The translations under genes and the position numbers were made by a program. The notes beneath the pieces are model-generated. The model had not been told where the DNA came from. It saw only the letters and a list, made by a program, of their open reading frames with translations, and did no database searches. DNA of 64,000 nt, from NCBI RefSeq assembly GCF_001611675.1, contig NZ_CP014766.1, positions 4,216,001-4,280,000 of the forward strand, read 5' to 3'. This DNA comes from Pontibacter akesuensis (GTDB lineage Bacteria > Bacteroidota > Bacteroidia > Cytophagales > Hymenobacteraceae). Shown piece by piece: positions 33,891-37,799 of this stretch (positions are counted from its first letter, which is position 1; each line of letters opens with the position of its first letter).

Positions 33891-34814
33891 ATGGCTACCG
33901 GACTTCTTGCTCTTTTAGATGATATTTCTGCCCTTGTAAAAGTTAGTGCAGCAACCCTAGATGATGTGCCTACTCAGGTTGCAAAAACAACGGGCAAAGT
34001 TTCCGGGATCGTGATAGATGATACGGCGGTGACACCAAAGTACGTGGTGGGCCTGGACCCTTCGCGGGAGCTTTCCATTATTTTTCAGATAGCAAAGAAG
34101 TCGCTCATCAACAAAATTTTACTTTTAAGCCCGGCGGCACTTATACTTGGTTTTTTTGCGCCATGGGCGATCGTACCTATTCTGATGCTGGGAGGTGCGT
34201 ATCTGTGTTACGAAGGGTATGAGAAAGTGCACTCCATGTTCAGTTCACATGTTTCAGAAACTGTCCAGAACGTAGCCGCTGGTTTGGAAGTCATCACACC
34301 CGAAGAACTGGAAAAGGAACGGGTGAAAGGAGCTGTGCGTACCGATTTAATTCTTTCCGCTGAAATTGTGGCCATTACGTACGCCACAGTGGCTGACAGC
34401 CCTCTGGTTACTCAAATTGCAGTGTTGCTGGCTGTGGCCATACTTATAACCGTGGCTGTTTACGGCTTTGTTGGTTTAATCGTGAAAGCGGATGATTTAG
34501 GTGTGCACATGGCCAAAGAGAACAACAGCGCGCAGGTTCGCAGTGTCGGCCGTGGCATTGTCACCTTTATGCCCCATTTCCTGAAGATCCTGGGCTTTGT
34601 CGGAACGGCAGCTATGCTGTGGGTAGGCGCAGAGATCATAGCGCACGGTATTCCGTTTACCAGCCACGCCCTGGATAACCTGGAACATGCCCTTGCCAAC
34701 ATCCCTGCTCTTGCCTGGTTTACGAAAGCAGTGGCCTGCGGGATTGGCGGCCTGATCTTAGGTTTTATCATAGATAGGATTTTGGTGCTGGGGCGCAAGA
34801 TCTTTAAAAAGTAG
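33891..34814 (+). CDS. DUF808 family inner-membrane protein
   Basis: A 307-residue polytopic membrane protein of the DUF808/YedI family. GLLALLDDISALVKVSA at the start, DDTAVTPKYVVGLDPSREL and the C-terminal GLILGFIIDRI are family blocks. At least six hydrophobic segments lie between residues 75 and 300. Function is unknown. The 290-base leader holds three evenly scattered AAGTATAA words (about 33712, 33791 and 33853). Confidence 0.9.
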   Translation: MATGLLALLDDISALVKVSAATLDDVPTQVAKTTGKVSGIVIDDTAVTPKYVVGLDPSRELSIIFQIAKKSLINKILLLSPAALILGFFAPWAIVPILMLGGAYLCYEGYEKVHSMFSSHVSETVQNVAAGLEVITPEELEKERVKGAVRTDLILSAEIVAITYATVADSPLVTQIAVLLAVAILITVAVYGFVGLIVKADDLGVHMAKENNSAQVRSVGRGIVTFMPHFLKILGFVGTAAMLWVGAEIIAHGIPFTSHALDNLEHALANIPALAWFTKAVACGIGGLILGFIIDRILVLGRKIFKK

Positions 34815-35121: not shown

Positions 35122-36093
35122 TTAACAACATCCCCCTCCGTCGTAAAACCAGGTAGATCCGGTGATGAAGATGTCCTGGCGGCCCAGGTTTTCCAGTGCC
35201 TTTGCTGTTTTGTCGCACACAGCCAGTGGCTGGTTGTGCAGCAGGGTATGTCCTTTTCCGTCGTCAAAGAAGCTCTCCCCGCCAAAGTAAATGGCATGCT
35301 TGCCTGTAAAAACACAAGGGCCATCAGCCGGCATAGGGTCTTTGATGGCGCAGATCTCCACGCTTTCGATAAAGATGGTCTGTTCGGTGTCGTACTGGCC
35401 GGGAGCCAATACGCGGTAGGGGCGTCTTGCCCGTACCTCCACGGTACCAAAGCCAATGCCCGTCAGCACGTCGAGGTACTCCTGCAGCGGCATGGCGCCG
35501 CTAAGGCAGAGCGCGCGGAGGCGGTCGTCGTTGCGCAGGCTTTCAGGCATGGCATCCTCACTCGTTGGGTCAGAAAGCACGAGCCTGCCGTGCGGCTTCA
35601 GCACCCGGTACATTTCCCTAAGAGCCACTTCCAGTTCTTCTTTCTTGAAAATATTGAACAGGCAGTTCTGGGCGGCCACATCCACCGATTCGTCTTCCAC
35701 GGGCAGTTGCAGGGCATCGCCATAGCGCAATTCCACAAAGTCCCGGTCAAACCAACTGTTCTTCCCGGCGGCAAGCTGCAGGTTCTCGTCACAGACTTCG
35801 AGCATTCGGTCCACCGGGTCTACGCCGATCACGGCACCTGGCCGGCGGGTAAAGTAGGAGAACTGCAGCAGCTCCATTCCGCCGCCAACGCCCACATAAA
35901 GCACGGTGGGAGCATGGCTCAGGTCGCGCGGGTTTACAGTTGAGCCGCAGCCGTAGTTCATCTCCAGCATTTTGGAGGGAACAGTCAGGTCTGGCAGTTG
36001 CCATACCGGTGTTGTGGTGCAGCATAGTCCCTTTTGTGGCGTATTGGCCGCATCTTCGTACACAAGTTTTGCCGCCTCTAAATAGTCGCTCAT
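35122..36093 (-). CDS. arsM: Arsenosugar-pathway arsenite methyltransferase (ArsM)
   Basis: A 323-residue SAM-dependent methyltransferase. The SAM loop VLYVGVGGGMELL lies near residues 64-76. Cysteines likely to bind arsenite occur at residues 24-25 (GLCCTTT) and 49 (YGCGS), and the protein ends GGGCC. It matches the ArsM form found with ArsS, in which methylated arsenic is used to build arsenosugars. It is last in a minus-strand run of CMD protein, arsS, PiT remnant and arsM. The cysteine pattern and the partner gene, not SAM fold alone, support the name. Confidence 0.88.
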   Translation of the reverse strand: MSDYLEAAKLVYEDAANTPQKGLCCTTTPVWQLPDLTVPSKMLEMNYGCGSTVNPRDLSHAPTVLYVGVGGGMELLQFSYFTRRPGAVIGVDPVDRMLEVCDENLQLAAGKNSWFDRDFVELRYGDALQLPVEDESVDVAAQNCLFNIFKKEELEVALREMYRVLKPHGRLVLSDPTSEDAMPESLRNDDRLRALCLSGAMPLQEYLDVLTGIGFGTVEVRARRPYRVLAPGQYDTEQTIFIESVEICAIKDPMPADGPCVFTGKHAIYFGGESFFDDGKGHTLLHNQPLAVCDKTAKALENLGRQDIFITGSTWFYDGGGCC

Positions 36094-36130: not shown

Positions 36131-36355
36131 TTATTGCAGAAAATAAGTTGTCAAAAGCCAGTAGCTAAGGCCGGCGCAGACCACAGCCACGTGCAGCGTC
36201 AGTAGCCAGGAAAGCAGTATGCCCGAGAATGTTTTGTAGTTGGCTTTTCCTGTTACGGTGCCGCTCCCAAAAAGCATGGCCTCTCCTTTGAAGTTGTCGT
36301 TGGTGCCATTGCTGAACGCCAGAAAGCAAGCTGCCAGGAATAAAAGTATAACCAT
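36131..36355 (-). pseudogene. Internally deleted PiT-type inorganic phosphate transporter remnant
   Basis: A 74-residue frame. Residues 1-35 (LLFLAACFLAFSNGTNDNFKG then LFGSGT) match the start of PiT phosphate permeases, with the N-terminal GxNDN motif as NGTNDN. The rest (KANYKT, GILLSWLLTLHVA) looks like the region that follows the second copy of the motif near the C-terminus. Normal PiT proteins exceed 300 residues and contain two homologous halves, so the middle is missing in frame. It is located in the arsenosugar operon, 37 bases from both neighbours. It is either a non-functional relic or a minimal one-hairpin membrane protein. The reading frame is intact, so translation is possible. 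Confidence 0.65.
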
Positions 36356-36392: not shown

Positions 36393-37460
36393 TTACTTCA
36401 CCGTTTCGCCCCCGCAGCTCGACCCGGCTCCGGCAGTGCAACCGTAACAATGCTGGTTCAGCACAATAGAGCGTGCATCCAAAGCGGCGGCGTCAAAATC
36501 GCGGATGTGCCGTGGCGACCCCAGGGCGACTTCCAGTTCCAGCATCTGGTTGAAATCGCAGTCGTAGAGGGAACCATCCCACCCCACGGAGACCGTGTTG
36601 CGGCACATCACGCCCGCTGCAGCCACCGGGTTAAAGGCATTCACCAGTTTCTCCATGTAGGCGTCGTAGTTGCCGCTTTGCACAAGGTAATCCAGAAAGC
36701 GGCTGATGGGCAGGTTAGTAATGCAGAACAGGTTGTGAAATGAAATATTGTAGCCGCTGCGCAGCCTGCGCTTAAACTCGGCCTCCAGCGAAGCCTGAGC
36801 GCTTGGCAGGAAAGCACCCGATGGGTTGTACACCAGGTCCAGTTGCAGATGGCTTCCTTCCAGCCCGTAGCCTTCGGCATTGAGCAGCTGCAGCGCCTTG
36901 ATGGACTTCTCGAACACCCCATCACCCCGTTGGGCATCGGTGCGGGACGCCTGGAAATAAGGAAGCGAGGATACCACGTGTACCCCATGCTGCCTGAAGA
37001 AAGCGGGCAGGTCGTGGTATTTTTTGTTGGCAAGTATAATGGTGAGGTTGCAGCGCACGATCACCTGCCGGCCCAGCCTGGAGAGTTCCTCCACAAACCA
37101 CCGGAAGTCAGGGTTCATTTCGGGAGCGCCACCTGTCAGATCCACGGTTGTGATGTCAGGGGAGTGCTGCAGGGCATCCAGGCACAGTTGCATGGTATCG
37201 CGTGTCATGATCTCCTTACGGTCAGGGCCAGCATCCACGTGGCAGTGCTTGCAGGTTTGGTTGCACATCTTGCCCATGTTCACCTGCAGAATGGTGGTTC
37301 CGGTGGGTTTTAACGGGAAAAGATCGTGTTCCTGCAGGCGTCTGGCAAAAGCCGGAAACTGTGTTCCGTGCTGCGTTGGCGCCTGTAGTACTGTTAATTG
37401 AAATGAGGAATTGGCCAGTTCATGCTGCTGCCCTTTAAGTGATTTTACCGTAGATCCCAT
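36393..37460 (-). CDS. arsS: Arsenosugar biosynthesis radical SAM protein ArsS
   Basis: A 355-residue radical SAM enzyme. The cluster motif is C66, C70 and C73 (MCNQTCKHCHVDAG). VDLTGGAPEMNPDFRW is the SAM-binding GGE-like segment. The C-terminus is cysteine-rich (NQHCYGCTAGAGSSCGG), suggesting an auxiliary cluster. ArsS transfers the 5'-deoxyadenosyl group to dimethylarsenite to give 5'-deoxyadenosyl dimethylarsine, an arsenosugar precursor. It sits 3 bases after the CMD gene and upstream of the PiT remnant and arsM. Confidence 0.92.
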   Translation of the reverse strand: MGSTVKSLKGQQHELANSSFQLTVLQAPTQHGTQFPAFARRLQEHDLFPLKPTGTTILQVNMGKMCNQTCKHCHVDAGPDRKEIMTRDTMQLCLDALQHSPDITTVDLTGGAPEMNPDFRWFVEELSRLGRQVIVRCNLTIILANKKYHDLPAFFRQHGVHVVSSLPYFQASRTDAQRGDGVFEKSIKALQLLNAEGYGLEGSHLQLDLVYNPSGAFLPSAQASLEAEFKRRLRSGYNISFHNLFCITNLPISRFLDYLVQSGNYDAYMEKLVNAFNPVAAAGVMCRNTVSVGWDGSLYDCDFNQMLELEVALGSPRHIRDFDAAALDARSIVLNQHCYGCTAGAGSSCGGETVK

Positions 37461-37463
37461 AGG

Positions 37464-37799
37464 CTACATCGTGAGCTCTTTTATCTTATTCATCATCTGC
37501 ACCCCATGCACCAGCGCAGCCCCCCCTTTAATAGCGGCGGCTACGTGCACGGCTTCCATCATCTGGTTCTCGTCGGCACCTTTCTCCAGGCAGTCGGTGC
37601 TGTAGGCATCAATACAATAGGGGCACTGTACCGCATGCGACACAGCCAGCGCGATAAGCGCCTTCTCCCGTGCTGTCAGGGCGCCCTCCTTGAACACCTC
37701 TCCGTAATAATCGAAGAATTTGCGGCCCATTTCTGGCTGCAGTTCGGATATATTTCCAAATTTTGAGAGATCAGCTGGGTTATAGTAGGTCTTTTCCAT
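37464..37799 (-). CDS. Arsenosugar-associated carboxymuconolactone decarboxylase/AhpD-like protein
   Basis: A 111-residue AhpD-like all-helical protein. The redox CxxC is CPYC at residues 59-62, with an upstream Glu at 45, as in the AhpD motif. The residue where AhpD usually has His is Tyr (CIDAYST). It is typical of the small peroxidase-like partner in ArsM/ArsS clusters. It is the first gene of the operon, 3 bases before arsS. Its role is probably redox protection or thiol chemistry. Confidence 0.85.
   Translation of the reverse strand: MEKTYYNPADLSKFGNISELQPEMGRKFFDYYGEVFKEGALTAREKALIALAVSHAVQCPYCIDAYSTDCLEKGADENQMMEAVHVAAAIKGGAALVHGVQMMNKIKELTM

Follow-up and report, generated by a model that had tools for sequence, protein, structure and literature searches.

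An In-Frame Deletion Remnant of a PiT Transporter Gene between arsS and arsM in Pontibacter akesuensis

The window analyzed here is a contiguous stretch of 64,000 nucleotides from the genome of Pontibacter akesuensis. It contains a group of arsenosugar-associated genes on the minus strand, and the features discussed in this report are collected in Table 1. The assignments of ArsM, ArsS, and the peroxidase-like protein are based on scores above the respective NCBIfam cut-offs. Between arsS and arsM is an open reading frame (ORF) of 74 codons that begins with ATG and ends with TAA. The coordinates confirm the gaps of 37 bases to arsS and 37 bases to arsM that were given in a preliminary description of this DNA.

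Table 1. Genes and gene segments of the arsenosugar locus of P. akesuensis, in window coordinates
Feature	Position	Strand	Basis
arsenosugar-associated AhpD/CMD-like peroxidase-like gene	37464..37799	-	TIGR04169, 194 bits (cut-off 120)
arsS, arsenosugar radical SAM protein, intact	36393..37460	-	TIGR04167, 439 bits (cut-off 300)
PiT (PF01384) gene remnant of 74 codons, left by an in-frame deletion	36131..36355	-	match to same-genus PiT
codons 1-33, N-terminal transporter segment (includes the first ND motif, NGTNDN, and runs to LFGSGT)	36257..36355	-	match to PiT of G099 and G033, offset 0
junction stretch LFGSGT, crossover likeliest in or beside GGCACC of the last two codons	36257..36274	-	inferred from relatives
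codons 34-74 and stop, C-terminal transporter segment (last helix, downstream of the second STTH motif)	36131..36256	-	ORF 28-68 matches G099 PiT 330-370, offset 302 codons
arsM, arsenosugar arsenite methyltransferase, intact	35122..36093	-	NF038099, 538 bits (cut-off 400)

The ORF alone was found to match the PHO4 family (PF01384) with 19.8 bits, which is well under the gathering cut-off of 33.7 bits. The 74-residue product contains two hydrophobic stretches. A single-sequence AlphaFold2 prediction gave helices at residues 2–29 and 35–73 with a mean pLDDT of 72.9; the pLDDT falls to 55–59 at residues 21–40, around the junction given in Table 1.

Among 50 genomes of the genus, P. akesuensis included, a protein above the PF01384 cut-off was found in three (G099, G033, and G115). 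All three encode a PiT of 373–376 residues at this slot, in the orientation of the ORF and with arsS and arsM on either side; the gaps to the neighboring genes are approximately 10–114 bases, and arsS of G115 is cut by a contig end. Codons 1–42 (or 6–42, or 1–41) of the ORF match the N-terminal end of these proteins, and codons 28–68 (or 28–73) match the C-terminal end, with E values of 1e-15 to 2e-12. The similarity between the ORF and PiT at the two ends is thus not a matter of chance. The left offset is 0 and the right offset is exactly 302 codons relative to the PiT of G099 and G033, and the two junction motifs are 302 codons apart in all three genes. The ORF is composed of residues 1–33 of the relatives fused in frame to residue 336 onward, with 302 codons (906 bp) missing. 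Since an intact PiT is found in the identical slot of three genomes of the same genus, the ORF is identified as an in-frame deleted PiT. The preliminary description had arrived at the same reading, an in-frame deleted PiT within the arsenosugar operon in which NGTNDN is joined at LFGSGT to sequence of the downstream half. The matches to the two ends of PiT bear this out, as do the full-length genes at the same slot that it suggested seeking.

A functional PiT is made of two halves, each with an ND and an STTH motif. Codons 1–33 and 34–68 of the ORF correspond to the two ends of a PiT of the type encoded beside arsS and arsM. Alignment to the solved PiT 6l85 (402 residues) places the first STTH, the second ND, and the second STTH motifs within the deleted part. 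The first ND motif alone is left in the ORF.

The sequence at the junction points to where the crossover may have occurred. The serine codon of LFGSGT is that of the N-terminal copy, and the GTA ACA GGA that follows is that of the C-terminal copy. The crossover would therefore have been in or beside the intervening GGCACC, as judged from the three relatives rather than the true ancestor. In the relatives, the two junction sites share 4–6 exact bases and 14–16 of 24 bases overall. All pairs of 24-base sites at least 300 bases apart were ranked, using the best shift within approximately 10 bases. Pairs equal to or better than the junction pair were determined to be 60 of 318,801 (0.02%), 361 of 318,801 (0.11%), and 164 of 326,028 (0.05%) for G099, G033, and G115, respectively. 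The corresponding numbers for in-frame pairs were 46 of 106,533, 246 of 106,533, and 132 of 108,945. The rarity of equal repeats favors a deletion at a short repeat. Nevertheless, 27, 74, and 44 site pairs in G099, G033, and G115 score above the junction pair, and the strongest repeats of the PiT gene lie around the two STTH regions, where a deletion would lose 217 codons. These stronger repeats elsewhere, together with an exact run of only 4–6 bases, speak against the short-repeat mechanism. Slippage at a short imperfect direct repeat that holds both ends may have given rise to the deletion. In bacteria, in-frame deletion pseudogenes form at short direct repeats. The ORF resembles these in its single deletion, repeat-like ends, open frame, and changed invariant residues; nothing about it is unusual by comparison, and its repeat is short and imperfect.

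The preliminary description had instead attributed the fusion to recombination between the duplicated halves of PiT. The two halves are homologous, with local scores of 100–107 compared with shuffle maxima of 55–66 (four proteins, 200 shuffles each), and the junction motifs LFGSGT and IFGIGT do resemble each other. However, they are not at equivalent positions of the two halves. When the halves of the proteins from G099, G115, and G033 were aligned with each other, the counterpart of the IFGIGT that follows the second STTH motif was the LFGSGV or LFGTGV behind the first STTH motif (residues 113–118 in G099) rather than the LFGSGT at residues 28–33, which comes after NGANDN. In the protein from G034, the local alignment starts beyond the first motif, and the STTH regions are paired likewise. 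Moreover, a crossover at equivalent positions would have removed approximately 217 codons rather than the 302 that were lost. Recombination at matching positions of the two PiT halves is thus a highly improbable origin for the deletion.

No other 74-residue fusion was found in 204 genomes of the family, nor in samples of 390 genomes of the order and 395 genomes of the phylum, each set containing one genome per species. With an E value threshold of 0.01, 25 of the 204 family genomes gave a match: P. akesuensis itself, G113, G143, and 22 genomes with full open PiT frames of 371–445 codons. G113 contains a tail of approximately 23 codons. In G143, from a related genus, the PiT frame (L148; C35, 23250–24335) is broken into 220 and 165 codons, by either decay or a sequencing error. 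A smaller sample of the family gave matches in 16 of 150 genomes. At a threshold of 0.001, matches were obtained in 12 of the 390 order genomes and 5 of the 395 phylum genomes, sets that overlap, again with no other short fusion. Six exact peptide patterns were also scanned over genome contigs, and this returned four loci: a full-length PiT is present in two of them, and the other two are truncated at a contig end. The scan contributes little to the evidence for a single occurrence, since it was insensitive enough to miss every full-length PiT gene of the genus and may omit records near that of P. akesuensis. Conservation of the 74-residue form in many species, which the preliminary description had named as the mark of a separate family, was sought in the family, order, and phylum sets and not found; the short form is present in one genome.

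A fusion that is present in a single genome could be a sequencing or assembly artifact, but the details of the locus make this extremely improbable. The loss is exactly in frame and has repeat-like ends, and in the relatives these ends share just 4–6 exact bases, which is too short for assembly collapse. In addition, the ORF carries substitutions of its own, and the genome of P. akesuensis, in 2 contigs, has a listed completeness of 99.98%.

The remaining codons were compared with those of 22 aligned relatives. Invariant columns were counted in 20 of these, after dropping L013 (frame broken) and L033 (cut by a contig end). The ORF differs at 3 of the 18 columns that are invariant in the 20 intact relatives (V25E, P55H, and A58V). 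When each of the 20 relatives was left out in turn, 15 were found to differ at none of the columns, four at one, and one at two. The ORF also has the change T27M, in a column with T in 21 of the 22 relatives, whereas the T of NGTNDN is not unusual and is present in 3 of the 22. Relative to the three same-genus PiT alone, the ORF differs at 8 of 48 invariant columns, compared with 17 of 266 for arsM of the same genome. When each intact PiT was set in turn against the columns shared by the remaining two, it differed at 2 of 50, 7 of 55, and 7 of 55, and the ORF differed at 8, 12, and 8 of these columns. Pairwise dN between the ORF and the intact relatives is 0.17–0.22, compared with 0.14–0.23 among the relatives, with synonymous sites near or at saturation. 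Because of this overlap and saturation, the values give no date for any relaxation of constraint and are compatible with selection on the stub. A neutral frame of this sequence would be stop-free with a probability of 0.75 after 8 substitutions and 0.59 after 15 (indels aside), and thus an open frame says little. The column counts, dN values, and stop probabilities are consistent with a recent loss and are no gauge of selection on the stub.

The 74-residue product could conceivably have been retained as a two-helix hairpin membrane protein with a new role beside ArsS and ArsM, such as membrane anchoring or regulation. Such a protein would account for the start, stop, and open frame, the 37-base gaps, the two hydrophobic stretches, and the two predicted helices. 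However, the 74-residue form is confined to one genome, residues that are invariant in the intact relatives have been altered, and the open frame carries little weight. We therefore regard a retained hairpin protein as unlikely by a wide measure. It is very unlikely that the ORF is expressed and its product maintained as a two-helix membrane partner of ArsS or ArsM, which would amount to a new small protein arising through a single deletion in a transporter. The preliminary description had allowed for either a relic or a minimal membrane protein. The relic is upheld by the deletion relative to intact relatives and by the occurrence in one genome only, and nothing was found in support of the minimal membrane protein.

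The ORF is very probably a loss-of-function relic of a full-size PiT, an ordinary decaying gene and not a new kind of protein. The open frame, the ATG start, and the 37 bases to each neighbor are points against reading it as a relic, and the presence of the fusion in one genome only affords no measure of purifying selection on the stub. The ancestral gene order would have been ahpD-like, arsS, PiT, and arsM, and from its family the ancestral PiT most likely imported arsenate and/or phosphate. One 906-bp deletion between the FGSGT codons near the start and the FGIGT codons near the end would then have fused codon 33 to codon 336 in frame and left arsS and arsM intact. The product would be a two-helix stub that should not transport, since the second ND motif and the STTH motifs of both halves are gone. 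The frame is probably still open because few changes have followed.

Other routes of phosphate uptake were sought in the genome of P. akesuensis. No other PiT was found above the PF01384 cut-off, which led us to reject the idea that a second, intact PiT compensates for the loss. No Na/Pi cotransporter (PF02690) was detected at an E value of 0.001. PstC is present above its cut-off, and phosphate could therefore be taken up independently of PiT. Separately, at least one weak PF01384 match below the cut-off was observed in 27 of the 50 genomes of the genus. One such match (L001 1471–2604; G000:C1 near 2009399; 20 bits) is a membrane protein of 377 residues with AND, PVSTT, and PMSTT motifs.

The fate of the slot differs among the genomes of the genus. 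The arsenosugar ArsM was found above the cut-off in 10 of the 50 genomes and ArsS in 38. In three of these 10 ArsM genomes, an intact PiT adjoins arsM, P. akesuensis has the fusion, G113 has the tail, and five (G071, G067, G109, G095, and G013) are without a counted PiT match. In a tree of arsM, P. akesuensis groups with G071, G113, and G013 with support of 93/96, where the first value is under the mark of 95 set by the tool and the deeper forks of the genus are open; an intact PiT is found in none of these four. In G113, SWLLTLPVAAVCAG... is retained ahead of arsM and still has the ancestral P and A, and the match is better than all 300 shuffles. The gap between arsS and arsM in G071 is 156 bases. 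A PiT remnant in this gap was rejected, since the scores of the local alignments with the P. akesuensis gap and the three PiT genes were reached by 61, 26, 59, and 30 of 300 shuffles. In G013, arsM lacks its start. The presence of a fusion, a 23-codon tail, and no remnant within one arsM clade indicates that decay of the slot has reached different end points.

Several additional features were observed around these genes. In G013 (L099 1–1495), a long and putatively transposase-like ORF on the opposite strand abuts the arsM that lacks its start. The arsS of G083 is spread over two frames (L078 1667–2715), which is likely a frameshift. For G067, a candidate arsS tail before arsM was a single match of 12 residues with an E value of 0.12 and was not counted. 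In G013 and in the genomes with an intact PiT, arsM is followed by a VKOR-like gene (L036 2354–2830, L037 6404–6877, L038 2550–3023, and L099 2500–2973), and another follows arsS in G064 (L070). PF07884 was tested for L036 only, and the others were judged alike by eye. After arsM of P. akesuensis, no VKOR-like ORF was seen, and a DUF808 gene (33891–34814) is found there on the other strand.

Outside the genus, wide stretches were viewed around PiT in 20 of 30 matching genomes or records, with nine further family genomes and G306 left out. PiT and arsM are adjacent on one strand in six of these (L035, L040, L149, L151, L152, and L153), although the contig of L035 holds only the first 23 residues of PiT. 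In L034, PiT is 3′ of arsS, and this is also the case in L033 after approximately 1.4 kb. L041 has arsM 2.3 kb from PiT on the other strand, and in L148 a weak match resembling arsM lies 3.5 kb from PiT. Neither arsM nor arsS was found at an E value of 1e-10 in the remaining ten stretches. The stretches with PiT near or adjoining arsM and/or arsS (L033–L035, L040, L149, and L151–L153) are from the same phylum as P. akesuensis and from records titled Planctomycetota, FCPU426, and Nostoc. From gene order, PiT would appear to be a recurrent arsenosugar-linked transporter.

A related arrangement is given for Burkholderia gladioli GSRB05, where pitA is beside arsenic genes that include an arsM and is called a low-affinity phosphate/arsenate transporter (PMC8552651). 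This resembles the PiT-type genes next to arsenic-metabolism genes described here; it differs in that the organism is another, the pathway is that of arsinothricin, and the gene is described as that of a transporter, with no deletion mentioned in the available text. For Synechocystis, the same text cites joint action of ArsS and ArsM in the synthesis of arsenosugars (PMC8552651). No PiT within an arsenosugar gene cluster was described in the titles and beginnings of abstracts returned by a literature search; this does not prove absence.

The locus of P. akesuensis would represent a clean case in which a transporter has been lost from an arsenosugar operon while the biosynthetic genes were left intact. 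The more interesting by-product of this analysis is the recurrent linkage of PiT and arsM outside the genus. The role of the linkage of PiT with arsM or arsS, whether in arsenate supply or phosphate balance, may be approachable through a comparison of natural strains with and without PiT.
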